This document shows, one piece after another, positions 1,178 through 49,775 of a DNA stretch of 52,332 nucleotides. The DNA is from a virus. How positions within the stretch are numbered: position 1 is the first letter of the stretch; each line of letters starts with the position of its first letter. Location of the stretch: the IMG/VR virus record IMGVR_UViG_3300023103_000007, positions 1 through 52,332 of that record, one strand, 5' to 3'. Under the pieces are notes generated by a model, which saw only the letters and a list, made by a program, of their open reading frames with translations, searched no databases and was not told the DNA's origin. The position numbers and the translations under genes are program-made.

Positions 1178-2608
1178 CTCACGATATTTGTCTCCCGTGA
1201 TGGTTGAGGCGATGTCTATCTTGTCCCTCAATGCTCTTATCACTCTCTCATCTATGGTTCCTGGGACATACAGATCTGTGTATGTCACTGACTTCTTCTG
1301 CCCCACACGATGAGCCCTGTCCTCGGACTGTATTCTTGTCTCCAGGTTATATCCATTGCTGTAGTATATGACATGACTGGCGGCAGTCCAGGTGTTTCCT
1401 CTTGCTCCTGTCTCGTTGGACACTATGAACCTGCACTCTGGGTCCTCCTGGAATCTGGTGGTGGCTCTCTCCCTGTCATCCAAGGTCGTTCCACCATGGA
1501 ACTCAACCACAGACTGTGGTCCATACACCTCCCTGATCTTATGTACGATAGTGTCGATGTCTGGACGATATGCAGACCATATTATCACCTTCCCACAGCT
1601 CTCCTCTATGACCTCCATCATCGTCTCCAGTCTGTTGTTCTGGAGATAGTGTAGATTGCCCTCCTCGTCCCTGACGTGACCACACAGTATCTGGTGCATC
1701 CTGGTCATCTGCTGCATCACCTGAGTAGCTGAGACAAAACTCCCCTCCCCGATCTCAGACTGTGCAGATCTCCTCACCTCATCGTACATTCTTCTCTGCT
1801 GTGGACTCAGCTCCACCTCCCTCATCGTGTAGATCTTGGGGGGTAGATCAAGACACTCCTCCTTGGTCACTCTGTATGAGTGTGGCTTTATCCTCCTGGC
1901 AAGATCCTCAGTATCTCTGTATGCAACCGGCACCTTCACTACTCTACCACCAACATACTTCTCCTCTATCACTGCGTATCTTGCCCTGAAAGAGAAGTAG
2001 GACGAGAACCCCAGCATCCTTCTTCCCAGGAACTCAAACTGAGAGTATATGTCCAGAGGTGATCTCGTTGCTGGGGATCCAGTCATTATTCTCCTCACTG
2101 CGCAGTGTCTTGATATCTCCACAGCTCTCTTAGTCCTCGTAGATGTTGGATTCTTAATCGTGGTACTCTCATCCAGGTACACAGCTGCAGGTCCTGATGA
2201 GACATGCCTCAGGGCACACTTAAGTGCCTTGTCTCCTGATGACATAGCCTCGATATTCATTATCAACACATATGGTCTGTCGCTGTTGAGCAACTTATTT
2301 AGTTTCACCTGATGAGCAGAAGACCCCCCTCCTGGTCTCCACTCTACTATCTCACATGAACTCCTGACGCTGTCTGGCATGTGCGTGGGTATCTCCCTGA
2401 GCAGCCAGTTCATGTAAACAGCCTTTGGTGCGAGTATCAATACTCTGGTGACTGAACCTGCTAGAATCAGCTTTGACATCTCATCAATGGCAACCTTGGT
2501 CTTCCCAGCACCCATCTCCATCAGCCAGGCGAATCCCTCTCTGCCCTCTGCCTGACGCAGTGCCTCTCTCTGGTGGTTATATGGTCTAGTCTTGTACTCG
2601 TATATCAT
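1166..2608 (-). CDS. SNF2-family (SF2) DNA helicase/translocase
   Basis: An ATP-driven translocase of 480 residues, probably acting on phage DNA during replication or recombination. Walker A is MEMGAGKTKVAIDE near residue 35, the DEXX box appears as YLDEST near 146, and the C-terminal RecA domain ends with the family signature RIQSEDRAHRVGQKKSVTY followed by DLYVPGTIDERV. The ATG follows GGGAGATACATAG. It is transcribed alone, leftward, away from the replication arm. The length fits the short SNF2-like helicases common in phages, which lack accessory domains. Confidence 0.93.
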   Translation of the reverse strand: MIYEYKTRPYNHQREALRQAEGREGFAWLMEMGAGKTKVAIDEMSKLILAGSVTRVLILAPKAVYMNWLLREIPTHMPDSVRSSCEIVEWRPGGGSSAHQVKLNKLLNSDRPYVLIMNIEAMSSGDKALKCALRHVSSGPAAVYLDESTTIKNPTSTRTKRAVEISRHCAVRRIMTGSPATRSPLDIYSQFEFLGRRMLGFSSYFSFRARYAVIEEKYVGGRVVKVPVAYRDTEDLARRIKPHSYRVTKEECLDLPPKIYTMREVELSPQQRRMYDEVRRSAQSEIGEGSFVSATQVMQQMTRMHQILCGHVRDEEGNLHYLQNNRLETMMEVIEESCGKVIIWSAYRPDIDTIVHKIREVYGPQSVVEFHGGTTLDDRERATTRFQEDPECRFIVSNETGARGNTWTAASHVIYYSNGYNLETRIQSEDRAHRVGQKKSVTYTDLYVPGTIDERVIRALRDKIDIASTITGDKYREWLI

Positions 2609-2629
2609 CTATGTATCTCCCTTGTCGAC

Positions 2630-2658
2630 AGTATAGCTCGGGGGTTACTGTGGCACAA
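2630..2658 (-). promoter_or_regulatory. Promoter of the helicase gene
   Basis: Minus strand TTGTGC, 17 bases, TATACT, with GC just before the -10 as in the other phage promoters. The transcript would start about 15 bases ahead of the ATG at 2608. Confidence 0.6.
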
Positions 2659-2685
2659 TATGCGCGATAGTCGGGGGTTACCGTG
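2638..2685. repeat. Direct repeat pair at the helicase promoter
   Basis: TCGGGGGTTACTGTG (2638-2652) and TCGGGGGTTACCGTG (2671-2685) are 33 bases apart, start to start, about three helical turns. The first overlaps the spacer of the helicase promoter, so the pair looks like an operator. Confidence 0.6.
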
Positions 2686-2771
2686 AAGGTATTGTTTTAG
2701 AACTCACACTGATCAGGCAATAGGGAAGTAATATGTTGCAAACCCCTACAGTGCTTGTGTATGCATCCTTG

Positions 2772-2848
2772 TGCTATTAGTATATTACTTATAACGTGAG
2801 AATTTTATAAAAGTTAGCCTCGCGGGCGCGCACGTGAGTAAGTAATAG
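2772..2848 (+). promoter_or_regulatory. Divergent control region, copy 1 of the long inverted repeat
   Basis: This AT-rich stretch lies between the leftward helicase and the rightward replication arm. It reads TGCTATTAGTATATT, then CTTATAAC, then TTAGCCTCGCGGGCGCG, then AAGTAATAG. The same series of blocks, with small changes, occurs in reverse complement at 27591-27673. Each copy therefore points toward one of the two convergent early arms. It could be a shared activator or operator region, or a replication origin. Confidence 0.8.
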
Positions 2849-2871
2849 TTTACTAGGTTCAATTCTTACGC

Positions 2872-2900
2872 TTTACTTCTCTGCAAACCTGGACTATAGC
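2872..2900 (+). promoter_or_regulatory. Promoter of the rightward replication arm
   Basis: TTTACT, 17 bases, TATAGC. The predicted start near 2907 is 29 bases ahead of the ATG at 2936, which has a good ribosome site. Confidence 0.65.
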
Positions 2901-2935
2901 TTCTATGTGTCGATTATACCATGAGGGAGAATTCG

Positions 2936-3550
2936 ATGAGAACTATTGATGATGACGAGATAGTGGGGTTCACTCATGCCCCGAGCGAGCAGGAGTCCCT
3001 TTCACTCACTGAGCTTGGTGTAAGACTCTACGTGGTTGACTCTGCGATTGCTGATGCTGAGACTCTCATCGAGAGACTGAGGGAGGAGAAGAGGAAGATC
3101 TCTCACGAGGATCTTCCTCGAAAGATGCAGGAGTTGGGTCAGGACAATATTGGTCTTCCTAGTCAGGGTGTAGACCTGCGTCTAGAGCCGTACTATCATG
3201 CGAACATTGCCGCCTCATGGGAGGCTGAGAGGAAGGACGCAGCTTTCCGCTACCTGGAGGACAGTGGTAATGGAGACCTCATAAAGACTAATCTTGTCAT
3301 ATCCTTCCCCCGACGAGCCAAGCACAAGGCGGACTGGCTACTTGGGGTCATAGATAGAGTTAAGCAGCTCATCGAGAGTGAGGGCGGTGAGGTGCATGAT
3401 GTGCCGGTTCCCTCTGTTGAGATGACTGTTCCCTGGAATACCCTGACGGCTTTCGTCAGGGAGCAAGTCGAGAGTGGTGAGCCCATCGATCTCGATGTAC
3501 TTGGTGCAACGGTGGGCAGTGTCGTTAAGATAAAGAAGAGGAAGTCCTGA
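2936..3550 (+). CDS. Conserved phage protein at the head of the replication module
   Basis: 204 residues. An earlier in-frame ATG lies at 2921, but the one at 2936 has the ribosome site (GAGGGAGAATTCG). Residues 25-60 are helical and charged (IADAETLIERLREEKRKI) and probably form a coiled coil; the middle contains YYHANIAASWEAERKDAAF. The end is lysine-rich (VKIKKRKS), which suits nucleic acid contact. The next gene overlaps by one base, so the two are probably made together. I recognise it only as a common partner of the following protein in phage replication modules; the function is unknown. Confidence 0.7.
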   Translation: MRTIDDDEIVGFTHAPSEQESLSLTELGVRLYVVDSAIADAETLIERLREEKRKISHEDLPRKMQELGQDNIGLPSQGVDLRLEPYYHANIAASWEAERKDAAFRYLEDSGNGDLIKTNLVISFPRRAKHKADWLLGVIDRVKQLIESEGGEVHDVPVPSVEMTVPWNTLTAFVREQVESGEPIDLDVLGATVGSVVKIKKRKS

Positions 3551-4377
3551 TGTCTAAGAGTGAAGTAGTTGCTGCAGAGAAGAGCAGCCAGGTGGTTGCA
3601 GTTGCTGGTCTGGAGCAGATCAGTGATGATGTACTTGGTGAGATAAGTGGTCTGGAGGGTGTCGGTCTCTCTGACTCCGTTGAGGATCGTGGTACTCCTC
3701 TGCTGTATATTGCACAGAAGAACAGCCGACAGGTCAACAAGCGTGCACCTGAGTACATTGATGGTCTTGAGGCTGGTATGGCCTTCAACAACTTGACTGG
3801 CAAGTTCTACGATGCTGAGGGTGACGGTGTAGACGTGTATGTCTGCTTCTTCAAGCCAGTCTGGATTGAGTGGACACCTGTTGATGCTGGTGGTGGGTTC
3901 CATGGCATCTACGATCGTGACCACGAGATTGCTCGTACTGGTCGTCAGCGGGAGGGTCGCTCAGACATCATCGATCTTCCTAATGGTCACGAGCTCGTGC
4001 TGACTCATCAGTACTATGCAGTGCTGGCAGATAGTATGCAGCCAATCGTTATACCAATGTCCTCGTCCAACCTGAAGGCATCTCAGAAGCTGCAGAACCT
4101 CATTGGTGAGCGTAAGGCGCAGACCTCGTCAGGTCGAGTTGTTACTCTTCCTGCCTACTTCACCAAGTTTAAGATCAAGACTGTGTACTCGGAGAACGAG
4201 AAGGGAGACTGGTTCCGCATGGTCGTTCAGGCCGCTGGTCCTGTCGAGGATCCGTCTGTCCGTGAGTTCTGCAAGCAGTTTGCTCTTGCCTGTCAGCGAA
4301 ATGAGGTGGATGTCGCTCAGCCGATCGACAATACACCCCTGGACTCAGTTGTCCCTGATGATGACATCCCTGTGTGA
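3550..4377 (+). CDS. Conserved phage replication-module protein, possibly ssDNA-binding
   Basis: 275 residues, TGATG-coupled to the gene before. It carries the conserved core TPLLYIAQKNSRQVNKRAPE followed by YIDGLEAGMAFNNLTGKFYD, found in a widespread phage family encoded next to primases and helicases. It ends in an acidic tail (DSVVPDDDIPV), which in many single-strand DNA-binding proteins recruits partners. That, and its place before the primase, make ssDNA binding a reasonable guess, but no OB-fold signature is certain by eye. Confidence 0.7.
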   Translation: MSKSEVVAAEKSSQVVAVAGLEQISDDVLGEISGLEGVGLSDSVEDRGTPLLYIAQKNSRQVNKRAPEYIDGLEAGMAFNNLTGKFYDAEGDGVDVYVCFFKPVWIEWTPVDAGGGFHGIYDRDHEIARTGRQREGRSDIIDLPNGHELVLTHQYYAVLADSMQPIVIPMSSSNLKASQKLQNLIGERKAQTSSGRVVTLPAYFTKFKIKTVYSENEKGDWFRMVVQAAGPVEDPSVREFCKQFALACQRNEVDVAQPIDNTPLDSVVPDDDIPV

Positions 4378-4387
4378 CAGCGACACT

Positions 4388-4407
4388 GGGGAGGGACACC
4401 CCTCCCC
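4388..4407 (+). terminator. Perfect hairpin between operon genes, built on the C-rich motif
   Basis: GGGGAGGG and CCCTCCCC form an 8 bp stem with the 4-base loop ACAC in the 57-base gap before the primase gene, followed by GATCGCC. There is no run of T, so attenuation or mRNA processing is as likely as true termination. Confidence 0.5.
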
Positions 4408-4434
4408 GATCGCCCTATCTCACAGTGAGGAATC

Positions 4435-5958
4435 ATGGACAGTACAGACAGGATTATGAGGCTCTTTGAGGGCTATGACATGGCTTATGGTACTCATGGT
4501 GCTATGAGTCAGAACGATACCAAGGGTGGGAAGCAGGAGATCAAGAAGACAGCCAGGACTGTGGCAGGGAGAGTAACTCGTGAGATCTGGGAGAGTCATC
4601 TCTCTGGTGATAACCCTCTTGGTGTCATTCCCATAAGATCGGACAATACGTGTCTGTGGGGTTGTATAGATGTTGACAAGTATGACATGCATCTTGGTGA
4701 AGTTGTCAAGAAGATAGAGTCATCTAAGTTTCCTCTTGTGGTGTGCAGGACAAAGTCGGGTGGCGCGCATCTGTTCCTCTTCTTGACTGAGCCAGCTCCT
4801 GCGGAGCAGGTGAGGATAAGACTCAGGGAGATGGCCGCAAGCATGGGATGGGGAGACTGTGAGGTGTTCCCGAAGCAGTCTAGGGTTATGACTGACCGAG
4901 GAGATCTGGGTAACTGGCTCAACATGCCCTATCTTGGTGGCGATGAGACCACCAGGTATGGTGTCAAGGAGAGTGGCAGTGGCATGGTGCTCTCTGAGTT
5001 TCTCTCCTGGGCTGAGTCGAGAAGGGTGAGCCCATCTAGTCTTGGTAGAGTCAGGATACCTCAGCCTGAGGACGAGACCTTAGACGATGGTCCGCCGTGT
5101 CTTCAGCATCTTGCGTCTGTGGGGTTTCCTGAGGGAACGAGGAACAATGGTCTCTTTGGTCTGGGTGTGTTCTGCAAGAGGAAGTTTGGCTCTCGGTGGC
5201 GTGAGATGCTGGAGAAGTACAACAGAGAGTACATGAGACCCCCCCTCTCGTCTGAGGAGGTCATGTCAACTATAAAGAATCTCGACAGACAGGAGTATGG
5301 TTACAAGTGCAGTGATCAGCCCTGTGTCTCATACTGCAACTCTACTCTGTGCAGGACTAGGAAGTTTGGTATTGGCTCGTCATCTGACTATCCTAGCATA
5401 TCAGGTCTGTCGAAGCTGGACAGTGATCCCGCAATATGGTTCATGGACATAGATGATGAGAGAATAGAGCTGACTACTAGGCAGCTCCAGAGCTACAGGG
5501 AGTTTCACACTGTCTGCATGGAGCGCCTTACGATATGCTACAAGATGCTGAAGCAGGACACATGGATGGACATGGTTCGTCTTGCAATGGAGGGAGCCTC
5601 AATAATTGAGCTTCCTCCTGAGGCTAAGAACGAGGGTCACTTCAGGGAGTTGCTTGAGGACTTCTGTGTCAATAGACATGCAGCTCAGGCTAGGGATGAG
5701 ATATTTGATGGGAAGCCTTTTCATGATGAGGAGGATGGGAACATCTACTTCAAGCTCAGCTCCCTCATGGACTTTCTCGACAGGCACAACTTCAAGGTAT
5801 GGGGTCGTAACAAAGTGTCTCATGCTGTTCTAACCATTGGTGGAAAGAAGTTCCTGAACATTAGAGGAAAGGGCGTCAACGTTTTCTGGGTGAGGGCATT
5901 AGAGTTTGTTGCTGTTCCACAGAGATCGGTGCCAGCTACACAGGAGGAGCCAGTATGA
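4435..5958 (+). CDS. Archaeo-eukaryotic-type DNA primase
   Basis: 507 residues; it would make primers for the phage polymerase. The AEP fold is visible as CLWGCIDVDKYDMHL (metal-binding aspartates, about residues 70-85), then VVCRTKSGGAHLFLFL (the S-x-x-x-H nucleotide motif, about 103-118), then EVFPKQSRV and NWLNMPYLGG, as in phage and plasmid primases. A cysteine set (CSDQPCVSYCNSTLC, near 295-310) may bind zinc. The C-terminal 150 residues may be a PriCT-like helical domain. The ATG follows GAGGAATC. Helicase-like genes flank it. Confidence 0.85.
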   Translation: MDSTDRIMRLFEGYDMAYGTHGAMSQNDTKGGKQEIKKTARTVAGRVTREIWESHLSGDNPLGVIPIRSDNTCLWGCIDVDKYDMHLGEVVKKIESSKFPLVVCRTKSGGAHLFLFLTEPAPAEQVRIRLREMAASMGWGDCEVFPKQSRVMTDRGDLGNWLNMPYLGGDETTRYGVKESGSGMVLSEFLSWAESRRVSPSSLGRVRIPQPEDETLDDGPPCLQHLASVGFPEGTRNNGLFGLGVFCKRKFGSRWREMLEKYNREYMRPPLSSEEVMSTIKNLDRQEYGYKCSDQPCVSYCNSTLCRTRKFGIGSSSDYPSISGLSKLDSDPAIWFMDIDDERIELTTRQLQSYREFHTVCMERLTICYKMLKQDTWMDMVRLAMEGASIIELPPEAKNEGHFRELLEDFCVNRHAAQARDEIFDGKPFHDEEDGNIYFKLSSLMDFLDRHNFKVWGRNKVSHAVLTIGGKKFLNIRGKGVNVFWVRALEFVAVPQRSVPATQEEPV

Positions 5959-6263
5959 CACAGCCGACAGAGAGGAAGATCTGGGAGATAGAGATGAGGA
6001 TCAGGAGTATTGAGGATGCTCTTGAGTGCAACCATCTTCGTAGTATCTGTGTTGAGCGGAGGGGTGACTTGGATCATGGATACAGGGATCTTGGTACTCT
6101 GGTGGGATCCTGTGGACTCAACATGGAGTCACTCTCCAGGGAGGTTGTCTCGGTGGTCAGGGGTATACTCAGGTTGAGACTGGAGGAATCGAGAGTGGAG
6201 ATTGGTCACTATCGTGGCATTCTGAGACAGAGACAGAGAGAGGAGCAGGCTAGTGGATCCTGA
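5955..6263 (+). CDS. Small coiled-coil hypothetical protein
   Basis: 102 residues, overlapping the primase stop by an ATGA and itself overlapped by the helicase start. The sequence is strongly charged and helical, with an amphipathic first half (WEIEMRIRSIEDALE) and an arginine- and glutamate-rich end. Its position between primase and helicase suggests an adaptor, but that is inference only. No named family recognised. Confidence 0.65.
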   Translation: MTQPTERKIWEIEMRIRSIEDALECNHLRSICVERRGDLDHGYRDLGTLVGSCGLNMESLSREVVSVVRGILRLRLEESRVEIGHYRGILRQRQREEQASGS

Positions 6264-7755
6264 GATTATACTTGGTCCTCCGGGAACAGGAAAGACCACT
6301 CGTCTTCTCTCTGAGGTTGAGAGGGAGCTTGCATCTGGTGTTGCTCCTGACAGGATTGGATATGTCTCCTTCACGAAGAGGGCGGCGAGAGAGGCTGTGG
6401 AGAGAGCCTGTAAGAAGTTCTCTCTGTCAGACAGGGACCTGCCTCACTTTCGCACTCTCCACTCCATGTGTTTCAGGTGCTTGGGTCTGTCCAACAGCGA
6501 CATTCTCGAGGGGAAGAAGGTTGTGGAGTTTGGTCGCTGGCTCGGCATAGAGATGAGCGAGATGGTCTCCATGGAGGAGGGTAGCTCGTTTGGTTTCAAG
6601 GATGGTGATCGAGCACTGTTCATGGAGAATCTCTCCAGGGTCAGGAGGATTCCTCTCAGGCAGCAGTATGATGAGGCACACGACTCTCTGCCATGGCATA
6701 TGGTTGAGCGTGTTGGCAGGGGTCTCTCTCAGTATAAGAGGGATCATCATCTAGTGGACTACACTGACATGCTCAGGATGTTCTGCGAGTCAGACACGTA
6801 TGCTCCCAGTCTTGAGGTTCTATTCGTAGACGAGGCACAGGATCTGTCTCCCCTGCAGTGGGATGTAGTGTGGAAGCTAGCTCTGGACGCCAGGAGGGTT
6901 GTCATCGCTGGCGACGATGATCAGGCCATCTACAGGTGGGCGGGTGCAGATGTCGAGAAGTTCGTGGACATGGATGGGGATGTTACAGTTCTTGGTCAGT
7001 CCTGGAGGGTTCCCTCATCTGTACAGGCAGTTAGCGCTGGCATCCTCTCCAGGCTTCACAGGCGGCGAGATAAAGCCTGGTCGCCTAGGGTAGCAGAGGG
7101 GGTTGTTACACGAGTGCCTGACTTCTGGAGCGCTGACCTGTCGGGTCCTGACGTACTGGTACTGGTGCGTAACGCGTTTGTAGCCCGCAGTATAATGCCT
7201 CACCTGTCCAGAGAGGGTGTTGTCTATGAGTGGAGGGGTCACCCATCAATAAGACAGAGCACCGTTGACGCTGTGCGACTCTGGGAGACACTCCGCAGGG
7301 GAGAGGCAGTGACGGTCGATGAGGCCAGGCAGGTCTACAGCTTGATGTCCTCTGGAACTGGTGTCCGGAGAGGGTTCAAGGAGTTGAAGGGTCTCCCCCC
7401 GACTGACCTCATTGGTATAGGTGATCTCAGGGAGAGAGGTGGTCTGGTCAGGGATGACATATGGCATCAGGCTCTTGAGAGGATACCAGCGGACGAGAGG
7501 AGCTATATGATTCGAGCCAGGAGACGTGGTGAGTCTCTCCTGTCCAGACCAAGGGTGAGAGTCTCCACTATACATGGGTCCAAGGGTGGTGAGGCTGATC
7601 ATGTTGTCATACTCACTGACATGGCCGCGAGGACACATGCAGAGATGATGACTAGTCCTGATGATGAGGCTCGTGTGTGGTATGTTGGTGTGACTCGTGC
7701 CAGGGAGAGACTCACAATAGTGGAGCCCTCAAGTAAGACGAATTTCAGGATCTAA
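6253..7755 (+). CDS. UvrD/PcrA-like superfamily 1 DNA helicase
   Basis: 500 residues, GTG start at 6253 inside the end of the gene before. Motifs in order: Walker A GPPGTGKTTRLL (residues 8-19), motif Ia YVSFTKRAAREAVERA, motif II LFVDEAQDLSPLQWDV (about 192-207), motif III AGDDDQAIYRWAGA, motif IV QSWRVPSSVQ, and late motifs STIHGSKGGEADHVVI and RVWYVGVTRARERL. The protein is shorter than cellular UvrD, with reduced 1B/2B domains, as in many phage helicases. It probably unwinds DNA 3' to 5' at the replication fork or in recombination. Confidence 0.93.
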   Translation: MDPEIILGPPGTGKTTRLLSEVERELASGVAPDRIGYVSFTKRAAREAVERACKKFSLSDRDLPHFRTLHSMCFRCLGLSNSDILEGKKVVEFGRWLGIEMSEMVSMEEGSSFGFKDGDRALFMENLSRVRRIPLRQQYDEAHDSLPWHMVERVGRGLSQYKRDHHLVDYTDMLRMFCESDTYAPSLEVLFVDEAQDLSPLQWDVVWKLALDARRVVIAGDDDQAIYRWAGADVEKFVDMDGDVTVLGQSWRVPSSVQAVSAGILSRLHRRRDKAWSPRVAEGVVTRVPDFWSADLSGPDVLVLVRNAFVARSIMPHLSREGVVYEWRGHPSIRQSTVDAVRLWETLRRGEAVTVDEARQVYSLMSSGTGVRRGFKELKGLPPTDLIGIGDLRERGGLVRDDIWHQALERIPADERSYMIRARRRGESLLSRPRVRVSTIHGSKGGEADHVVILTDMAARTHAEMMTSPDDEARVWYVGVTRARERLTIVEPSSKTNFRI

Positions 7756-7763
7756 TCTGGGGC

Positions 7764-7792
7764 TTTACATTCTTGCCCAGATGGGCTATACT
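7764..7792 (+). promoter_or_regulatory. Promoter ahead of the NPKR-domain gene
   Basis: TTTACA, 17 bases, TATACT with GGGC just upstream of the -10. It is one of the best matches in the window to the phage's repeated promoter form. Predicted start near 7799. Confidence 0.8.
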
Positions 7793-7799
7793 CACTGTG

Positions 7800-8192
7800 A
7801 ACTGGGGATGTGTCTTGGTGTGCTTAGCAGTAACACGACAGGGTTTTGGTGACATATGGGCTCTTGAGAGCTTTGAGGAAGCCGACACCCATCCTCTTAT
7901 TCAGTATGGCGATGCCAAGATGTGTGGTCCTCAGGATATCTTGAGGCAGTACAACACTCTTGAGCTACCAAGGCTAGTTGGGATGACCGGAGACTCCGTG
8001 CTCATCCAGGACTATGACCAGTACGTTCCAAGAAGGAGTGATGCTCCAGTAGGAAGAGTAAGGTCAGCGGCTGAGGGCTATGCTGACAGGATATGGCGCG
8101 CTCTACTGAGGGCAGCAAGACCAGTTCCAACTGATCCAGCAGAGATCTGCAGGATAGTGGTCATGGATAGAAAGACAATCAAGGAGGTCAAG
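7800..8192 (+). other. Open stretch upstream of the NPKR gene: N-terminal extension or long leader
   Basis: The frame of the next gene stays open back to 7773, so an N-terminal extension of up to about 130 residues is possible, for example from GTG 7797 or ATG 7920. However, none of these starts has a good ribosome site and the promoter overlaps the beginning of the open frame. The alternative is a 390-base untranslated leader. The stretch reads like protein (LIQDYDQYVPRRSDAPVGR), so an upstream-extended isoform should be considered. Confidence 0.4.
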
Positions 8193-8504
8193 ATGACTGA
8201 TCAAGACACTGCTGGCCAGGTAGAGGGTCAGGTTAAAGAGAAGAAGGTTCGTGAACCAAAACCTGATACGTTTCCGCTGACTGGTACGATTCATCTGCTC
8301 CAGGATAAGGAGGGTAATCAGTACCACGGCACTGATCGGAACCCTAAACGTCCTGGTACAAAGGCACATGAGGCCTTTGCGAAGTATCAGGATGGCATGA
8401 GTGTTCAGCAGTTTGTTGACGCAGTTGGCAACAAGACTGAGGCCTTTGCTCACCTGAAGAACGATACCAACGAGAAGAAGGCTTTTGTTCGGGTTGATGC
8501 CTGA
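8193..8504 (+). CDS. NPKR-domain protein, paralogue 1
   Basis: 103 residues from the ATG at 8193, chosen because AAGGAGGTCAAG lies directly before it. After a charged linker, residues 55-90 carry NPKRPGTKAHEAFAKYQDGM followed by SVQQFVDAVG. The same motif occurs in the proteins at 22307-22804 and 26824-27438, so the phage has three paralogues. In other phages the motif runs N-P-K-R-x-G-S-K-S-H-x-R-F-x-x-Y-x-x-G-M-T-V and is of unknown function. The basic charge suggests nucleic acid binding. It lies downstream of a strong promoter and just ahead of the tRNA genes. Confidence 0.75.
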   Translation: MTDQDTAGQVEGQVKEKKVREPKPDTFPLTGTIHLLQDKEGNQYHGTDRNPKRPGTKAHEAFAKYQDGMSVQQFVDAVGNKTEAFAHLKNDTNEKKAFVRVDA

Positions 8505-8513
8505 CGGGGTCCA

Positions 8514-8590
8514 GTGCACCTAGCTCAACTGGTCAGAGCCGACCGCTCATAACGGTCTGGTTGGGGGTTCGAGTCCCTCGGTGCACACCA
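8514..8590 (+). tRNA. tRNA with CAT anticodon (Met, or Ile2 if modified)
   Basis: A complete cloverleaf of 77 bases. The 7 bp acceptor pairs GTGCACC with GGTGCAC, the anticodon stem GACCG/CGGTC holds the loop CTCATAA, and the T arm reads GGGGGTTCGAGTCCCTC. A discriminator A and an encoded CCA end follow. CAT tRNAs may be methionine or, after lysidine modification of C34, isoleucine AUA; the sequence alone does not decide. Confidence 0.93.
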
Positions 8591-8675
8591 GTGAATCCGT
8601 CCCTGCAAGCAGTATAATGGCCCAGGTGTGATAAGGTGAGGTGAGATGTCCTCACGGCGGAGTTCTAGAGATTCA

Positions 8676-8752
8676 GGACACCTAGCTCAGCAGGACAGAG
8701 CAGCTGGCTCCTATCCAGCAGGTCGCAGGTTCGAGTCCTGCGGTGTTCGCCA
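8676..8752 (+). tRNA. tRNA-Arg(CCT), reads AGG
   Basis: A complete cloverleaf of 77 bases. GGACACC pairs with GGTGTTC (one G-T), the anticodon stem GCTGG/CCAGC holds the loop CTCCTAT, and the T arm is GCAGGTTCGAGTCCTGC. An encoded CCA follows the discriminator G. The anticodon CCT reads AGG, which the phage genes use very heavily for arginine, so this tRNA probably compensates for a codon that is rare in the host. Confidence 0.95.
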
Positions 8753-9012
8753 GGTCCCACCAGGCAGGGGCGGATAAGTCTGCACAGAGACTAAATCCGA
8801 AGGTGTCTGGACCACATGCTCCGTGGTACATCAGGTGTCGACTGCTTCTGTGAGCTGTCTGTGACCTGACGGAGTGGTCCTTGGTATGACCATAAACTGC
8901 CCTGAGTTTCACCAGGTTGGCCGAGTGAGTTACGAGAAATGATCTGAAGCCCGCACAGATCACGTATCTCCTGGTTGTAGCCCTGACAGACGGCGAGATA
9001 GTCTGCCATTAC
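8753..9012 (+). other. Structured noncoding stretch after the tRNAs
   Basis: About 260 bases with no convincing gene on either strand, read from the tRNA side and closed by the terminator at 9013. Several local hairpins can be drawn; the clearest pairs TGATCTG with CAGATCA around the loop AAGCCCGCA, enclosed by ACCAGG/CCTGGT (8910-8977), which resembles a tRNA body lacking its T arm. It may be a decayed tRNA or an unknown RNA. Confidence 0.4.
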
Positions 9013-9056
9013 AAGCCCCAGCCCAACTCGGAAGAGAAGCTGGGGCTTTACTTCTT
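9013..9056 (+). terminator. Intrinsic terminator of the tRNA transcript
   Basis: AAGCCCCAGC (9013-9022) pairs perfectly with GCTGGGGCTT (9039-9048), followed by TACTTCTT. The descending arm also supplies the -35 box of the next promoter, so termination and re-initiation are packed together. Confidence 0.75.
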
Positions 9057-38474: not shown

Positions 38475-38475
38475 A

Positions 38476-41919: not shown

Positions 41920-41926
41920 GGTTTGA

Positions 41927-42331
41927 ATGAGCAGGATAGATGAGTTCACGAGAATACTAGCTAGGCTTCCCTTTGTTTATGGGAGGCACGACTGTGCTCT
42001 CGTTCTTGCTGACTGGTGGATGTATCTTCACTCATCCCAGCATGACCCTGCATACCACCTTCGTGGTACATACTCCACGGAGGAGGAGTGCTGCAGGGTT
42101 TTGGAGGATCATGGAGGTCTCGCGAGGGTCGTCAGGGGTATAGCCCTCTCCGTGGGCGCTACGCGATCCAGTGATCCTGCTCCAGGTGACGTATCTGTTG
42201 TCAGGATACTAGACAGACACTGGTGTGCTATCATGTCATCCTCCGGCAGGTGGGTCATGAAGACAGGAGCGGGCATCTCCTCCCCTGATTCCTCCTCCCT
42301 GAGGGTTGTCTGCTGCTGGAGGATCTGCTGA
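41927..42331 (+). CDS. Tail tip NlpC/P60-like peptidase (DUF6950)
   Basis: 134 residues. RLPFVYGRHDCALVLADWWM is the catalytic Cys motif (H-D-C-x-x-x-x-A-D) and GDVSVVRILDRHWCAIMSSS the histidine region. The family cuts peptidoglycan crosslinks during DNA entry. Position after the tip gene matches GTA gp14. Start ATG 41927. Confidence 0.85.
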   Translation: MSRIDEFTRILARLPFVYGRHDCALVLADWWMYLHSSQHDPAYHLRGTYSTEEECCRVLEDHGGLARVVRGIALSVGATRSSDPAPGDVSVVRILDRHWCAIMSSSGRWVMKTGAGISSPDSSSLRVVCCWRIC

Positions 42332-45141
42332 TGCCTCAGGCTCTTGTTGGTCTCATTGTAGCAGCTGGTGTTCCTGGTCTCGTGACTGCTGCTGGTACAC
42401 TCACTCTTGCTGGTACACTCACATCATTCGCCATAGGTGTTGGTCTGTCTCTTGCTGGGAGTGCTCTTCTTGCTGCTGCTCAGAAGACACCCAAGCCACA
42501 GGATGTGCAGAATACTCTCAGGCAGCCAGTACCCCCTAGAATGAGGTACTATGGAAGACATAGGGTGGGTGGATCACTCATGGCCATAGAGACCTGGCAG
42601 GGGAACCTGTATCAGGTCATCGCCCACTCTCAGGGTCTTCTGGATGGTGTTGAGGGATATATAATCGACAACAGGTCAGTCACCACTGACTCCAGTGGTA
42701 ACGTCACGTCAAGACCATACCCGCGAACAGTCAGCGTTGGGAACCCAGTGCGGGTGAGGTGTGTCACGTATCCGGGAACTGCCTCACAGCTGGCGGATCC
42801 CGACATGATGACTCGGTTTCCTGATCTCTGGACAGAGTATCACAGGCTGCGTGGAGTGTGCTACACTGTGTTTACTGCTGCACGTGTGAAGTCTGAGTAC
42901 TTCATAAATGTCTATCCAACAGGTATACCTAAACTTAATGTTGATGCCAGGTTCAGCAGGGTGTTTGACCCCAGGGATCCCACACAGTCTAGGTCTGACC
43001 AATCAACGTGGAAGTATACCACCAATCTCGCTCTCCAGTTTGCAGACTACCTCACTCACCCTGATGGCATGCAGATAGACTGGTCCATGATAGACGAGGA
43101 CAGGCTCTCCACGGCTGCTGACGTGTGTGACGAAGTTCTCACCACTAAGTCAGGATCGTCTGTCCTCAGGTATCACGGTGGGCTCTCATACTCTCTCACC
43201 TCTGAGCCAAGAGAGGTGGTGGATAGGTTCCTCTTCTCCATGGATGGCAGGTTGTCTCTTCTTCCGTCTGGTAAGATAGCTGTGGATGCTGGCAAGTGGG
43301 TGGAGCCAGTGGTTCATGTTGAGGACAGGCACATCTGCTCCTTCGAACTCACTGACAGCTCTGGTCCACTGTCTGAGGCAAATGAGATAATCATTAAATA
43401 TACGTTTGAGGAGGCTAACTTCTCCGAGACGACCTGTGATCCCTGGAGAGATGATGACCTGATCAGTCAGTACGGTGAGGTGAAGACCAAGGACTTTGAG
43501 GCATTTGAGATAAGAAGCCACAACCATGCAAGACGGATAGCCAAGATCTTGTCAGAGAGACTGAGTCCTCGATGGTCTGGGACTATCGTCACCAACCTGT
43601 TTGGTATGAAGTGCTACGACCAGAGGTGGATCCTACTCAGTATTGACAGTCTGGGCATAGAGGCAGAGACATTCGAGATACTGAGTTTCACTGAGAGCTT
43701 CCTGGACGGAAGAGTTGTCATGGAGGTTGCCTCCTTCCGCGAGGAGATCTACAACTTTGATCCTGCCACTGAGGAGGGAACAGCCCCCACAGCCCCCGAG
43801 CTACTGGAGGAGAGCGATGTCACTCCTCCTGAGGGGATTGAGGCAGAGACTGTGCTGGTTACTGGAGGTTACTCTGTCATAAGAGTCTCATGGGATGCGC
43901 AGAGGAATGACTACAGTGTACAGGTGCAGTATGCCATAGCGAACTCCGGACAGTGGCAGGCTGTCGCAGTATCCGACAACTCTACATCAGTTGACATATA
44001 TAGTCTTATTGATGGTGAGGAGTATGATGTACAGGTCAGGAACATTGCTGCATCAGGTACACCGTCCACCTGGGTCACTCTGGAGGACATACAGTACATC
44101 GGCAACCCCTCCCCGCCTGGGTCTCCGACATCACTTAGTGTCTCATCCTCAGGTGCCGATGTCGTTGTCACCTGGATAACTCCCAACAGCCAGTCCTTCA
44201 GTAGGAGTCGGCTCTACAGGGCACCAGCAGGATCCCCCCTTGGGTCGGCAGCTGATATATCTGGGTCTCTGTTCGGGTCACCTAACCAGTCAGTGACTTA
44301 TATTGACAGTCCGCCATATGGTAGTTATGACTACTGGGTTGTTGCTGAGAATGCGTCTGGAGTGCAGTCTTCTCCTACTGGACCAGTTAGCCTCTCGGGA
44401 GGGGTGCAGCCTGAGACTTCTGCTCTTCTGGCGAGGATGACAGTGCAGCCTTCATCTGCGAGAAGGAACCTGATAGATGAGCTGATCTCCTCACTCAAGA
44501 GCGCAGGTGTGTGGTCCAAGCTCAACACTCTCTATGTCTATGCAGCACACTCTCAGCAGGCCTCTCTCCTTAACTGGAGATCATCCTCCTACGACAGCTC
44601 AGCACTGGGCTCTCCTGTCTTCACTGCCGACAGGGGCTTTGCTCTGTCGAGTGGATCCAGCATAGACACTACTATGAACCCGTCAACTGCTGGAGCACCA
44701 TACACACAGAACTCTGCGCACTTTGGTTTGTGGAGCAGAACATCTGGACAGTTCACTGGCTATGAGCTTGGATCCACAGCCTCTGCAGCATCTAACTACT
44801 CGTACGTGAGGCTGCGCTCCACCTCGGACACACTGGGTGCCAGGATCAATGACCTGACTGCACTTACAGTGACTGGAGTCACTGATGCCTCAGGCCACAC
44901 TGTGGTGAACAGGAGTGGAGCCACCGCGAGGCAGGTCTTTAAGAATGGCGTTCAGGTGTTCAGTGATAGTGTGGCCTCATCTGGTCTCACGAACTCCAGC
45001 ACTCACGTTGGCAGGATGTCGACAACATACACAGACAGACAGATAGCCGCTGCACATACTGGTGGGTCACTCACTGCAGGAGAGGCAGATGCTCTGTATG
45101 ATGCTCTGTACACCTACATGTCTGCAGTTGGTGCTGCCTGA
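42331..45141 (+). CDS. Central tail / host-specificity protein (J-like)
   Basis: 936 residues. The N-terminal 50 residues are hydrophobic (GVPGLVTAAGTLTLAGTLTS). Then the J-like core: VPPRMRYYGRHRVGGSLMAI, LLDGVEGYIIDNRSV, DVCDEVLTTKSGSSVLRYHG and the ANEIIIKYTFEEANF region. Two fibronectin-like domains follow (about residues 500-600 and 605-700), and the last 220 residues resemble a concanavalin/LamG-like beta sandwich (DTTMNPSTAGAPYTQNSAHF). The protein forms the fibre hub and contacts the host. Confidence 0.85.
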   Translation: MPQALVGLIVAAGVPGLVTAAGTLTLAGTLTSFAIGVGLSLAGSALLAAAQKTPKPQDVQNTLRQPVPPRMRYYGRHRVGGSLMAIETWQGNLYQVIAHSQGLLDGVEGYIIDNRSVTTDSSGNVTSRPYPRTVSVGNPVRVRCVTYPGTASQLADPDMMTRFPDLWTEYHRLRGVCYTVFTAARVKSEYFINVYPTGIPKLNVDARFSRVFDPRDPTQSRSDQSTWKYTTNLALQFADYLTHPDGMQIDWSMIDEDRLSTAADVCDEVLTTKSGSSVLRYHGGLSYSLTSEPREVVDRFLFSMDGRLSLLPSGKIAVDAGKWVEPVVHVEDRHICSFELTDSSGPLSEANEIIIKYTFEEANFSETTCDPWRDDDLISQYGEVKTKDFEAFEIRSHNHARRIAKILSERLSPRWSGTIVTNLFGMKCYDQRWILLSIDSLGIEAETFEILSFTESFLDGRVVMEVASFREEIYNFDPATEEGTAPTAPELLEESDVTPPEGIEAETVLVTGGYSVIRVSWDAQRNDYSVQVQYAIANSGQWQAVAVSDNSTSVDIYSLIDGEEYDVQVRNIAASGTPSTWVTLEDIQYIGNPSPPGSPTSLSVSSSGADVVVTWITPNSQSFSRSRLYRAPAGSPLGSAADISGSLFGSPNQSVTYIDSPPYGSYDYWVVAENASGVQSSPTGPVSLSGGVQPETSALLARMTVQPSSARRNLIDELISSLKSAGVWSKLNTLYVYAAHSQQASLLNWRSSSYDSSALGSPVFTADRGFALSSGSSIDTTMNPSTAGAPYTQNSAHFGLWSRTSGQFTGYELGSTASAASNYSYVRLRSTSDTLGARINDLTALTVTGVTDASGHTVVNRSGATARQVFKNGVQVFSDSVASSGLTNSSTHVGRMSTTYTDRQIAAAHTGGSLTAGEADALYDALYTYMSAVGAA

Positions 45142-45152
45142 GGGAGGAAGAT

Positions 45153-45674
45153 ATGGTTGTTGGTGACTTCAGGGACTACACTGGGATGGAGAGCAGCAGG
45201 AACTCCAGGATTATGTCTCAGCTTATGAAGTTGTCTGAGAAGATCAGTATTCTCAGTTCATCTCAGCTGAGTGACGAACAGAAGATAGGGGCTATACAGA
45301 CAGCGCTAATTCAGCTAAACTTAAGCGTAGTGTCTCTCGGAGACAGCATCACCTCTCTTCAGGAGCTGGTCAACACTAAGATGACTGCCCTCAGCGGATC
45401 AGCAAGGAGTCTCAAGATTCTTCCTGATGTTGTCAAGAGTTATAGTTCTATTCTCTCGATCGTGTTGGCAGGAGACAGGTCATACGAGCTGGTCTGCACT
45501 GGTGCACTCACTACTGACACTATTCTTCCATACGTAAAGAGTGCACCCTCTGGTTTTCGTCTTGTTCGTGCAGTACCCACAGCCACAGACAGAGTTACAG
45601 TAACGATAGCAGAGCCAGCTCTCGCAGTAGGATTCACAGGTACCATGACCGTTGGTCTGGTTGCACTAAGGTAG
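45153..45674 (+). CDS. Tail fibre accessory with coiled coil and beta end
   Basis: 173 residues, ribosome site GAGGGAGGAAGAT. The first 85 residues form a coiled coil (RIMSQLMKLSEKISILSSS, IGAIQTALIQLNLSVVSLGD); the rest is a small beta domain (YELVCTGALTTDTILPYVKS, RVTVTIAEPALAVGF). It probably trimerises and joins fibre to tip. Confidence 0.65.
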   Translation: MVVGDFRDYTGMESSRNSRIMSQLMKLSEKISILSSSQLSDEQKIGAIQTALIQLNLSVVSLGDSITSLQELVNTKMTALSGSARSLKILPDVVKSYSSILSIVLAGDRSYELVCTGALTTDTILPYVKSAPSGFRLVRAVPTATDRVTVTIAEPALAVGFTGTMTVGLVALR

Positions 45675-45678
45675 TACA

Positions 45679-48378
45679 ATGGGACAGATATCAGACATTG
45701 CATCCAGCGTCTTCAGGGACTGGGAGACACAGGGAGTACCATCGAGTGGAGCACATGAGCCTGACAAGGCAGAGACCAGAGATTTATTTTCTCTAATTGA
45801 CGATCAAATATCGCAAATATTATCTGGGTTATCTATAGGTGATATGGTAATATACCCATCAGTTTTGGATATGGAAGACGATTTCGATAACCAAGATCCA
45901 GGACAATATGCTCTTATCGTATCCTCTGATGTTGATAAACTTAAAATATATGTAAGAGGTTCAACAGAATGGGAGTTCGTTACCACATTATCTGCTGCTG
46001 ATGTGGCTAATACTGAACAGGTAATAACTTGGGGTTTCTTTGGTGTAGTTGAATTTGATCAAAATGGTATACTGGGTCAAGTACGTACAATTTATTTACC
46101 AAGAAATTATTATTATAAGAGGGATGGTGTAGAGTATTCTATAACAAACGCTGGTACAGAAAGCACACGTTATCCTGGTAAAACAGAGATACAATATCCA
46201 GCAGGAGCGACACTCTATGCTTTATATATTGACACAGAAGACAACGTTTCTCCATTTAAGTTACAAGCATATGGATCCACCTCCCTCTCCCGATCAGAGA
46301 GATACATACCTGTTTTAACATTTTCTTCTGGTGTAGTACAGTTTTCAAACGTCAGGTATCAGGATCTAGAGGGTGTAGAAAAGACAGTATATTTGAATTA
46401 TCCTATTGTTGTTGATAACGCTACTGTATTCGTTCCTGATGGTTTTGTGGGATCTGATTCTGTTGCTAATTTTACAGATAGAATATTTTATAAAGAAATG
46501 GCATTTACATCAGATGGATCAGGAAAACAATTATGTTGGAATCATGCTAATTTCTTAAATAATTTAGATCCATGGGTAGTTACAGGTTATCCAAGAAACC
46601 CACAATCAGCAGCTGTTACACCAATCTTAAGATCTTTTAATGGTAGCTATATACCATTATCTGGTGTAGATGTTGTCGGGGAGGTTACTGGTGGTACTAT
46701 TAGAAACCAAGCTGTGACTGGTAAATCTAATCCTGAATTGTGTGATATAAAAATACCGACAAATGTTTTGTCTGATATAACAGAATCAAATTTACTTGCA
46801 TTGGGTTTTACTAAGGGTTATGCTAGTCCAACTGGTTCATTTAACCATTATGGTGTGTTATTATCTGATAATGCTCCTGGTAGATGGGCATTTGTACGTA
46901 TTTATGTTCAGACAGATACAGATAATAGTTTTGGTTCTGTGACTGGATTTTTTACAACACCAACACTCTCTGGTAACTCTTCTTTCTCTTTAGTGAGAGA
47001 AAAAACTCTTTCTGCTAGAGCTGCCATTTTTTGTGGTTGGGCTAAAATGCCATCCACAACACTTTATACAGGTATTTGGGTTGGTAGTGTTTCTGGTGGT
47101 TCTGTTAATGTAATAGTCTGTGGGTTACAGATTGGTTATGGTTCATCATCTAGATCTTGGGTAAGAAGAGGTGATTATCCTACAGCAGATCAATCTGTTG
47201 ATAAGAAATTAATGAATGTTATTGGATCAACAGAAGTTTCTCCAGAACCGAGCCTATTGTATCCTGATGACATGTGGATGATTGAGAATAGAAATAGATC
47301 TTTTTATCCAACATGTATTGTAGAACAAAGACAAGAAGGTGATACACTAAGGTTTGCGTTATCTACCAGAAAAGGATCTGATAGGTATCCTTTTGCAGAT
47401 GTAAGAGGAGACAGTTCTGTAGAACTGTCTCCTTCTCGTTTGGGTTCTTCTATCCGTGTGTTGGCTCGTAGAACATTGTCTTCCGCTAAAGCAGACAGAT
47501 ACTATAAAGATATTGGTGTACATATTGCTCCTGCAGCAAGTTTAAGTGGTCAAACTGTAAGACCTCTTTATATCGGAGACAGTATAACAGAAATAAGCGG
47601 TCGTACTGCGGCAATGGTGAGAAAGTTAACATCTTTAAGTATGACTGTTGTTCCTGTTGGTACAGTTGATGTTGTAGAAACTGGGGAATCTGGTACAACT
47701 AAGGCAGAAGGTAGGTCATCTAGAAGATATGATGAGTATACTGGGGAAGATCAAAGTAGAACAGCACCAATAACTCCTGGTAATGAATCAACATATCTTG
47801 CTTTAAGTACAGCATCTAAGAGAGAATATAACCCCTTCCTTAGAGCATCAACTGGAGGAGATCCATCTGAATATATTTTTGGCGGATATATTTTTGATCT
47901 TTCTTTCTATCTAACTAGATTCAGTTTAAATACACCAACACACATCATCATCAATCTTGGTACTAATGATTTTAATCAACTCGGTCCAGTTGATGGTGCT
48001 GCTTCTGTTGATGCAGGTATTCGTTGTCTAGTAGCTAGAATAAGAGCCACACACCCAATACTACCTATTGCGTTCTCTATTAACCAACAACCAAGAACAC
48101 CATCAGGTGATGCTTTTTGGATACAGAGACAAACTATTAACATCAAGACACATTTTGAAACATTAGAAGATATCGCAGACTCTAATTGTTATGTTTTACC
48201 TGGATATGCTCACATATCTCCTGACGATGGTTGGCCATTTCCAACACCAACTACAGACCCAATAACAGGGCAAAAGAAAACGACAATAACAGATGGATTA
48301 CATTATGAGGGTATAGCTACAGAACAAATGGCTGAATTAGAGTCAGCTTGGATAGCCTGTATAACAGCTGGTGTTTAA
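45679..48378 (+). CDS. Tail fibre/spike with C-terminal SGNH esterase
   Basis: 899 residues. The first 35 codons share the phage's GC-rich style; from about 45781 the DNA turns AT-rich through the whole gene, so a foreign receptor-binding part was joined to a native N-terminal anchor (QISDIASSVFRDWETQ). Residues 635-895 are an SGNH/GDSL hydrolase: LYIGDSITEISG (Ser), THIIINLGTNDFNQLG (Asn), and TITDGLHYEG (Asp-His). It probably removes acetyl groups from surface glycans. The motif CCTCTCCCGATC is embedded at 46284. Confidence 0.9.
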   Translation: MGQISDIASSVFRDWETQGVPSSGAHEPDKAETRDLFSLIDDQISQILSGLSIGDMVIYPSVLDMEDDFDNQDPGQYALIVSSDVDKLKIYVRGSTEWEFVTTLSAADVANTEQVITWGFFGVVEFDQNGILGQVRTIYLPRNYYYKRDGVEYSITNAGTESTRYPGKTEIQYPAGATLYALYIDTEDNVSPFKLQAYGSTSLSRSERYIPVLTFSSGVVQFSNVRYQDLEGVEKTVYLNYPIVVDNATVFVPDGFVGSDSVANFTDRIFYKEMAFTSDGSGKQLCWNHANFLNNLDPWVVTGYPRNPQSAAVTPILRSFNGSYIPLSGVDVVGEVTGGTIRNQAVTGKSNPELCDIKIPTNVLSDITESNLLALGFTKGYASPTGSFNHYGVLLSDNAPGRWAFVRIYVQTDTDNSFGSVTGFFTTPTLSGNSSFSLVREKTLSARAAIFCGWAKMPSTTLYTGIWVGSVSGGSVNVIVCGLQIGYGSSSRSWVRRGDYPTADQSVDKKLMNVIGSTEVSPEPSLLYPDDMWMIENRNRSFYPTCIVEQRQEGDTLRFALSTRKGSDRYPFADVRGDSSVELSPSRLGSSIRVLARRTLSSAKADRYYKDIGVHIAPAASLSGQTVRPLYIGDSITEISGRTAAMVRKLTSLSMTVVPVGTVDVVETGESGTTKAEGRSSRRYDEYTGEDQSRTAPITPGNESTYLALSTASKREYNPFLRASTGGDPSEYIFGGYIFDLSFYLTRFSLNTPTHIIINLGTNDFNQLGPVDGAASVDAGIRCLVARIRATHPILPIAFSINQQPRTPSGDAFWIQRQTINIKTHFETLEDIADSNCYVLPGYAHISPDDGWPFPTPTTDPITGQKKTTITDGLHYEGIATEQMAELESAWIACITAGV

Positions 48379-48388
48379 GGAAAAACCC

Positions 48389-48601
48389 ATGATACTATCT
48401 AAAGACGAAACACAGGTAGGATTTATAGAATTGTCTAAACTGGAGGGTTTAGACAAACAGATAGAGGTCTACTTAGATGACAAATTGATCGAAGATTGGA
48501 TATCTGTTGACACTAATAAAGAAACAGTTACAACAGATGAAGGAGAGTTTTCAGGTAAAGTTGAAATTAATATAATTGACAACTCATTCCCTATGGATTA
48601 A
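48389..48601 (+). CDS. Small protein, fibre chaperone-like
   Basis: 70 residues from ATG 48389 (TAAGGAAAAACCC before it). It lies directly after the fibre gene in the same AT-rich block and is acidic (GFIELSKLEGLDKQIEVYLD, VEINIIDNSFPMD). Small genes after fibre genes often help fibre folding; that is inferred from position. Confidence 0.65.
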   Translation: MILSKDETQVGFIELSKLEGLDKQIEVYLDDKLIEDWISVDTNKETVTTDEGEFSGKVEINIIDNSFPMD

Positions 48602-48612
48602 GGAGAAAAACC

Positions 48613-49470
48613 ATGAAAGAAAATTTCAACAGATTATTAAAATTAGTTTTAGTCCACGAAGGTGGTAAGGTGGACGATCCTAGAGACCCAGGAGGGCGTA
48701 CAAATCAAGGCGTAACCCAGAGAACATTTGATGCTTACTTAAGTGTAAGACACCAACAACATAGGGACGTATTTACTTTAACCGACGCAGAAAGAGACGA
48801 GATATATCAAATACAATACTGGAACAAAACCCAATCCACCTCCCTCCCCGATGGCGTCGATTATGTGGTCTTTGATGCAGCTGTACACTCTGGCCCAGCA
48901 CAAGCAGCTAAGTGGTTACAAAGAGCAGTAGGATCAAATCCTGATGGCGTAATCGGGGAGAGGACTGTTGCTGCCGTGTATGCTAGTCGTAATATAGCTG
49001 ATATTATTAATTCTGTGTGCGATCAAAGACTAACCATGATGAAACGTCTTCCTACTTGGAAAACTTATGGTAAGGGTTGGACACGTAGAGTAGAAGAAGT
49101 TAGGAGATTAGCTCTGGAGCTCGCTGGAGGAAGGGAGATTACGCCATCTAGTAGGGTAGAGGAGGCACACTCGAAGGCAGCCTCGAAGGATGCAGTACCC
49201 TCTCCAGCCCGTGCTCCGGGGGACATAGCGATAGGGGTGGGGACAACTCTCCTCACGGCCTCTCCTCTGGGTCTTGCGATAGCCGAGGCAACTGACACCC
49301 TGAGGCCTCTTGTGAGTGCTCTTCCTTCTGTTGGCTACATAGTTACTGGCCTCACTCTTGTCGGTGTGGCTGCTGCTGCTGCTGGCTCGCTCTACAGAGT
49401 GTGGGCTGCTCGGAGGACTAGAGAGATTGCCAGCGATCTTGGAGTAGAGAACCCAGAGGTGATAGTATGA
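48613..49470 (+). CDS. Endolysin (GH108 muramidase) with C-terminal membrane segment
   Basis: 285 residues. Residues 12-170 are a GH108/peptidoglycan-binding endolysin: VLVHEGGKVDDPRDPGGRTN (catalytic Glu16) and QGVTQRTFDAYLS, DEIYQIQYWNKTQ, then NPDGVIGERTVAA of the PG-binding half. The C-terminal 100 residues hold hydrophobic spans (TLLTASPLGLAIAEATD, VGYIVTGLTLVGVAAAAAG). Codon use changes from AT-rich to native near 49115, between enzyme and tail, so the gene is a hybrid. Carries the dispersed motif at 48845 and 48953. Confidence 0.9.
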   Translation: MKENFNRLLKLVLVHEGGKVDDPRDPGGRTNQGVTQRTFDAYLSVRHQQHRDVFTLTDAERDEIYQIQYWNKTQSTSLPDGVDYVVFDAAVHSGPAQAAKWLQRAVGSNPDGVIGERTVAAVYASRNIADIINSVCDQRLTMMKRLPTWKTYGKGWTRRVEEVRRLALELAGGREITPSSRVEEAHSKAASKDAVPSPARAPGDIAIGVGTTLLTASPLGLAIAEATDTLRPLVSALPSVGYIVTGLTLVGVAAAAAGSLYRVWAARRTREIASDLGVENPEVIV

Positions 49471-49775
49471 CATGGAGGCAGTCGAGACCATACGTGATCG
49501 TTGTCCTGGTGACGGCTGCTGTCCTCACACTCTCTGTCGTTTCTCGTCATCTATACAGGTCGTCCTACATCAGCGGATACAACTCAGCCGTCACCAGGAC
49601 AGCGATCACCCTGGAGAGGCTCAGTGTTCCCTGTGGTGACGGAGTGTCCGTCAGGGTGAGGATAGCCCAGGTGGTCTCCGACATATGCACCAGCTCACCT
49701 GATCCCATGTCCTGTCTGAACTCCTCAGGAGCAGCCTCTCACCACAACCCCCTCCCCGCTGCCCGCGAGGACTGA
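49467..49775 (+). CDS. Single-pass membrane protein, possible spanin-like
   Basis: 102 residues, ATGA overlap with the endolysin. A single N-terminal span (YVIVVLVTAAVLTLSVVS) with a basic start, then a periplasmic-looking domain with a Cys pair (VPCGDGVSVRVRIAQVV and DICTSSPDPMSCLN). It lies in the lysis cassette. It could be an i-spanin-like protein or a small Rz-like factor, but the coiled coil expected for a spanin is short. Confidence 0.6.
   Translation: MTWRQSRPYVIVVLVTAAVLTLSVVSRHLYRSSYISGYNSAVTRTAITLERLSVPCGDGVSVRVRIAQVVSDICTSSPDPMSCLNSSGAASHHNPLPAARED

Follow-up and report, generated by a model that had tools for sequence, protein, structure and literature searches.

A dispersed CTCCCC(C)G word tied to the replication module of an uncultured phage family: a possible primase start site

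The whole of IMG/VR virus record IMGVR_UViG_3300023103_000007 (52,332 bases, hereafter the window), which carries a tailed-phage gene set, was analysed for a short C-rich word with the core CTCCCC(C)G that is scattered along both strands. It was confirmed that the word is a real signal at the DNA level, and it was found that the word belongs to the phage replication module. Our tentative interpretation is that it is read by a protein of that module, and that it would most likely be a template start site of the phage primase. We found no earlier description of the word in the open PMC literature.

A preliminary description of this DNA, made from the sequence alone, had proposed about nine exact copies of CTCCCCGAT, and all nine were found within 1 nucleotide (nt) of where they had been reported (7 on the plus and 2 on the minus strand), compared to 0.32 in dinucleotide shuffles, none of 100 of which gave nine or more. 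The most enriched 9-mer was CCCTCCCCG, with 17 copies compared to 0.3 expected from an order-3 Markov model. The consensus was (C)CCTCCCC(C)GA[T/C], and an alignment of the 37 CTCCCC(C)G sites (23 plus, 14 minus) yielded cCCCTCCCCGAt, in which both flanks are informative beyond the seed. To account for coding, codons were permuted inside genes with intergenic DNA unchanged, or, in a second scheme, pooled genome-wide (300 trials each). The codon-preserving shuffles gave a mean of 2.58 and a maximum of 5 copies of CTCCCCGAT (observed 9), a mean of 1.86 and a maximum of 5 of CCCTCCCCG (observed 17), and a mean of 7.91 and a maximum of 16 of CTCCCCG (observed 27). The observed count was attained in 0 of 300 shuffles for all seven patterns tried under both schemes, so the outcome that the preliminary description had named as refuting its motif did not occur. 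CTCCCCG and CCTCCCCG were the top 7- and 8-mers of the window under both nulls. The base preceding CCCCG was T or C in 55 cases, A in 2, and G in 4, and other contexts of CCCCG were depleted: ACCCCG (2 observed, 20 expected), GCCCCG (4 and 12), CCCCGG (3 and 17), and CCCCGT (4 and 16).

In the motif scan, the cores of the nine exact CTCCCCGAT copies, all of the form CTCCCCG, were located on the plus strand at 1745-1751, 4402-4408, 10792-10798, 13875-13881, 19493-19499, 30337-30343, and 48844-48850, and on the minus strand at 23556-23562 and 48954-48960. Other CTCCCCG cores were at 16137-16143, 22587-22593, 22594-22600, 25697-25703, 30043-30049, 36643-36649, 40509-40515, 44109-44115, and 49752-49758 (plus) and at 9761-9767, 13443-13449, 14486-14492, 15522-15528, 15939-15945, 16841-16847, 21154-21160, 22325-22331, and 46677-46683 (minus). 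The longer core CTCCCCCG was present at 9470-9477, 16712-16719, 24824-24831 (intergenic), 26468-26475, 31387-31394, 33023-33030, and 40495-40502 (plus) and at 9647-9654, 13450-13457, and 27300-27307 (minus). The preliminary description had also listed 14 close variants, 13 of which do have a C-run motif at that place; the sequence at 46284 reads TCTCCCGATC, and the nearest real site is at 46675. Copies of CTCCCCGAC at 14484 and 22594 had been overlooked.

The sites fall in all three reading frames, 16 in the sense and 16 in the antisense orientation and 5 between genes (5.0 expected). The mean spacing is 1333 nt, or about 0.7 sites per kb. Relative to codon shuffles, the excess was 15 versus 4.2 in positions 1-17760, 10 versus 2.0 in 17761-27840, and 8 versus 2.2 in the structural region 27841-45150 (attained in 2 of 300 shuffles). 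There was no excess in the AT-rich fibre block at 45151-48380 (1 versus 0.4, attained in 94 of 300 shuffles), to which the motif had also been assigned. The association with hairpins that had been suggested holds for the intergenic sites at 4402, which lies 33 nt upstream of the primase gene within a GGGGAGG..CCTCCCC hairpin, and at 10792 (GGGAGG..CCTCCC), although a 6-bp hairpin arm was present at only 3 of the 37 sites.

Related phages were compared, and those with the same replication module were found to carry variants of the word, such as CTCCCCCGC, CTCCCCGGC, and CCTCCCCGGT. No near DNA match to the window was present in the phage collection, and no relatives came from a scan with the capsid. 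With PolA, 14 loci were obtained, and seven of the corresponding records were read more or less whole. The primase, helicase, PolA, SNF2, 5-hydroxymethyldeoxyuridine (5-hmdU) kinase, thymidylate synthase, and glycosyltransferase were common to all seven, whereas homologues of the structural genes of the window were found less often (terL in three of the seven, the portal in two, the capsid in one, and the tape measure in none). The enriched words of these relatives include CCTCCCCCGC, CTCCCCGGCC, CCCCCGCC, and CCCTCCCCGG. With codon and intergenic shuffling, the z value of CT-C(4-6)-G was 13.6 in the window, 6.1 in G003, 3.5 in G006, 6.4 in G010, and 3.9 in G011; lower values were obtained for G005 (1.9) and for the two GC-rich carriers, G004 (0.5) and G007 (0.7). 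It was therefore at least 3.5 in 5 of 8 module carriers, compared to none of 12 other records (maximum 1.7), namely L001, L002, L010 (a 19.5-kb fragment obtained with PolA, in which no primase match was seen), DSL-LC04, MW202510, PMBT28, Barton, Kokobel2, R5C, PaMx11, MeZS1, and CcrSwift. G001 and G002 share a portal homologue and had no word excess, and no primase match was found in them in a search that lacked a positive control.

A scan with a primase alignment gave 411 relatives, from 80 of which the follow-up was drawn; 14 of those 80 were searched whole for CTCCCCSG with the reversed word as a control, and ten of them (G022 to G031) joined the family. The counts (word/reversed word) were 15/0 in G023, 9/0 in G024, 16/3 in G025, 14/3 in G030, and 15/0 in G031; 8/6 in G022, 8/7 in G026, 8/6 in G027, 11/7 in G028, and 8/5 in G029; and 4/1 in G032, 1/1 in G033, 0/1 in G034, and 3/0 in G035. 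In 13 of 18 module carriers, both nulls placed a C-run-plus-G word in the top seven 7- or 8-mers.

The 3′ end of the word variant appears to follow the primase tree, with word labels that we assigned from the enriched words and that are weak for G004 and G025: the phages of the CCCCCGC type (G003, G010, G004, and G023) form a supported clade (100/99), the window (CGA) is sister to it, and the CGG-type words lie outside. In partial Mantel tests controlling for G+C over 16 carriers, similarity of the C-run words was correlated with relatedness of the primase (r 0.36, p 0.0034), the helicase (r 0.41, p 0.0002), and PolA (r 0.35, p 0.0012); the test omitted G025 and G029, for which no PolA match was found, as well as the more distant G033 and named phages.

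The primase to which we tentatively assign the word is of the archaeo-eukaryotic primase (AEP) type and is encoded at 4435-5958 on the plus strand (Pfam AEP-TOTE, 2.5e-13; PHROG primase, 9.6e-90). Its sequence has AEP-like signatures, in which the naming of catalytic residues is our own, and three cysteines that are conserved in the alignment. A sequence search reached only PDB entries 7nqd and 7nqf, the Prim-Pol domain of the CRISPR-associated Prim-Pol (CAPP) of Marinitoga. In the predicted structure, residues 1-208 match the CAPP Prim-Pol fold with a Z score of about 18, including its primer-initiation complex, and residues 393-494 match winged-helix DNA-binding domains with Z scores of 5-7, which is suggestive only. 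Also encoded on the plus strand are a UvrD/Rep-like helicase, presumed to be replicative, at 6253-7755 (Pfam UvrD-helicase, 1.7e-30) and a DNA polymerase A at 15767-17755 (PHROG 17, 1.9e-103). In the proposed model, the UvrD-like helicase would expose single strands, the primase would recognise CTCCCCG or its complement by means of its C-terminal winged-helix-like part or the cysteine cluster and would lay a primer at the word for discontinuous DNA synthesis, and PolA would extend that primer. The whole genome, swapped-in structural genes included, would then be under selection to keep about 0.7 copies per kb, with both strands bearing the word. These biochemical steps are inferred, as is the choice of the primase over another protein of the module. 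Through the shared replication module, a primase site is the best supported of the four functions that had been listed for the motif in the preliminary description. Also in its favour, the more distant MW202510, at 39% primase identity, carries a different dispersed word, GTCCCTG (20 copies versus 2.0-2.5 expected), which occurs on either strand and is spread over several reading frames.

There are precedents for a primase site. According to passages of PMC8718748, the PrimPol of phage NrS-1 recognises an 8-nt site, TTTGGTTA, and GTG. In phage T7, the primase site TGGTC was third among the 1024 5-mers when ranked by excess on both strands, and [GT]GGTC occurs 118 and 117 times on the two strands, compared to 88 and 81 in codon shuffles; this gives partial support to the idea that phages enrich the sites of their own primases. 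The likeness of both systems to the window lies in a phage-encoded primase and a word on both strands, although the T7 site is shorter than the word described here.

Several results weigh against the primase interpretation. The other T7 primase sites were unremarkable (GGGTC rank 82, GTGTC rank 219). The structural model of the primase is of only moderate confidence (predicted local distance difference test 72, predicted template modelling score 0.42), and Z scores of 5-7 may merely reflect a common fold. In the window, there is no CTCCCC(C)G on the minus strand between 27307 and 46677, and the spacing was not clearly more regular than random (P 0.27); among 11 genomes tested, only G003 and G027 had a P value below 0.05. 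Four of the 18 carriers (G004, G024, G025, and G028) had no C-run-plus-G top word under both nulls; the form in G007 has three Cs. The primase of G028 is 78% identical to that of G027, yet its excess of GCCCCGGC is weaker (22 versus 11, against 46 versus 21 in G027). C4G words were also in the top lists of 4 of 9 comparison phages (PMBT28, Barton, PaMx11, and MeZS1), and therefore only the CT-C-run-G form is specific, and not the general C-run. No word was found in DSL-LC04 (primase 40% identical), PMBT28, Barton, and Kokobel2, which have a related primase, nor in R5C, and the idea that the word accompanies a related primase in all phages was thus rejected. Words lacking C- or G-runs also gave Mantel r values of 0.30, 0.22, and 0.30 for the primase, helicase, and PolA, and because these three proteins predicted word similarity equally well, the protein within the module that reads the word is not singled out.

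That equality favours the alternative that the word is bound by another protein of the module, such as the helicase, a partner of PolA, or a nucleoid-like or segregation protein, as does the presence of several conserved module proteins without a known function (7773-8504, 25530-25970, and a short segment of 26824-27438). We consider this unlikely, as no known sequence-specific domain was found among the candidates tested.

A Chi-like role, in which the word would stop a host RecBCD/AddAB-type or phage nuclease so that a recombinase is loaded and phage ends are protected, appears slightly less likely still. The complement, CGGGGAGG, is G-rich and asymmetric, as in known Chi words, and the replication module encodes a gp34-like protein (Pam3_Gp34) that is present in all seven PolA-found relatives. 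According to passages of PMC3784561, lambda-group phages without RecBCD inhibitors are enriched in host Chi, a short asymmetric word that, like the one in the window, exceeds what composition predicts. However, the word itself differs, the five Proteobacteria Chi words reported in passages of PMC8022716 (GCTGGTGG and near variants) being unlike it, and its density of about 0.7 per kb is higher than the 0.2 per kb given for phage Chi in the same passages of PMC3784561. Moreover, a word read by the host should track the host, whereas this word is tied to the phage replication module rather than to a known host; a scan of genome contigs with the primase gave five distant loci only and no host.

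The closest anatomical parallel is provided by the recognition sites for site-specific single-strand nicks in the virion DNA of phages such as T5, phiKMV, tf, and Rembedalsseter, but by comparison with these phages, such a role is improbable for the word in the window. In passages of PMC3517423, tf is described as having 14 copies of a 9-nt word (TACTRTGMC), and in passages of PMC11780129, Rembedalsseter has 13 copies of WACTRTGAC, a word common to 61 phages of low DNA similarity. The likeness to the window thus consists of a word of about 9 nt in about 13-14 copies, mostly in genes, within a family of little DNA similarity, and the phiKMV-group consensus CCTA/CTCCGG somewhat resembles CCTCCCCGG. 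In those phages, however, the sites lie on one strand only, whereas the plus:minus counts here were 23:14 in the window, 20:18 in G010, 78:66 in G026, and 8:12 in MW202510. This objection is weakened by carriers with a strand skew, namely G007 (11:29), G006 (CTCCCCG, 3:13), and G025 (13:3), the directions of which are not all alike. In G006 (L027-L029), TCCCCGG sites were mainly on the minus strand and TCCCCCCGG sites mainly on the plus strand.

It is very improbable that the word is a by-product, whether of bias in codons or amino acids, of a mutation bias towards C-runs, or of terminators or hairpins. The C-run excess in the GC-rich G004 and G007 partly vanishes under codon shuffles, GCCCCGGC is over-represented between the genes of G027 (11 versus 3.5), and part of the signal in G026 and G027 may consist of hairpins or intergenic elements, but for the window this explanation is already largely refuted by the codon shuffles, the mixture of frames and strands, the scarcity of hairpin arms, and the depletion of other C4G contexts. 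Amino-acid or codon bias was accordingly rejected for the window, as were intrinsic terminators, which are hairpins at gene ends.

Three further candidates were set aside. KOPS (FtsK-orienting polar sequences) have the form GGGNAGGG with any N and are strongly oriented, and the complement of CCCTCCCC, which is GGGGAGGG, resembles them; KOPS were rejected because in the window only N=G was enriched (24 versus 2, 2, and 0), a following G was required (17 of 24), and both strands were used. Stoperators, the repressor sites of mycobacteriophages, are mostly intergenic and oriented with transcription, and a regulatory role of this kind was rejected on the basis of the sense, antisense, and intergenic counts given above. 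Packaging sites, which had been among the functions first suggested, are disfavoured because carriers of the word often have no recognisable counterpart of the terminase, portal, or capsid of the window.

Dispersed words of other kinds were found in other phages: CCTGGGC in PaMx11 (L045; 120 versus 40-48) and CGATTGC in R5C (L044; 48 versus 12). The AT-rich marine relatives L073-L139 (primase 40-46% identical) numbered 67, or 60 after removal of 7 that are GC-rich, and 47 loci remained when 13 overlapping ones were dropped. In these loci, TGGACCA (299 versus 79-108) and TCCTGGA (244 versus 80-83) were about threefold over codon shuffles, but both are fixed in one reading frame as Gly-Pro/Pro-Gly codon pairs, a codon-pair preference, and therefore they were not counted as the same phenomenon.

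The right side of the window carries the terminase, portal, capsid, tape measure, and fibre genes, and the left side the replication and nucleotide genes, which encode the primase, UvrD-like helicase, PolA, dCTP deaminase, a thymidylate-synthase-like enzyme, 5-hmdU DNA kinase, and a TET-associated glycosyltransferase. The last four are located at 9252-13398, and this gene set suggests that the phage DNA contains a hypermodified thymine. A 63-nt inverted repeat (86% alike) at 2772-2834 and 27611-27673, with one arm in each of the two intergenic regions between divergent genes, is a candidate shared promoter or operator. A 43-nt direct repeat (84%) ending in GTGTTATACCTTAGTATAA at 22861-22903 and 24081-24123, and an array of the short repeat CACAGTACACCTAYAG at 24886-25003 in a gene-poor stretch, are possible operators or origins. 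The two ends of the record (1-296 and 52079-52332) consist of the same CTG-rich 9/12-nt repeat with no exact terminal repeat found, and the record is therefore possibly circular or else interrupted at this repeat.

It is conceivable, if rather doubtful, that replication in this uncultured phage family relies on a primase initiating exclusively at a word of 8-10 nt, that the genomes of the family, exchanged structural modules included, are continuously re-seeded with that word, and that the specificity of the primase and its changes along the primase tree can be read from genome statistics. If the word is a priming site, the sequence of an uncultured phage would allow its Okazaki start points to be predicted, and the specificity of phage primases of the archaeo-eukaryotic type, which is known for very few enzymes, could be deduced for many of them. 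Should the word prove to be a Chi or nick signal, it would be a new and unusually dense one that is shared by a replication module moving between virion types. Either way, the word provides a concrete and testable DNA signal that acts genome-wide.

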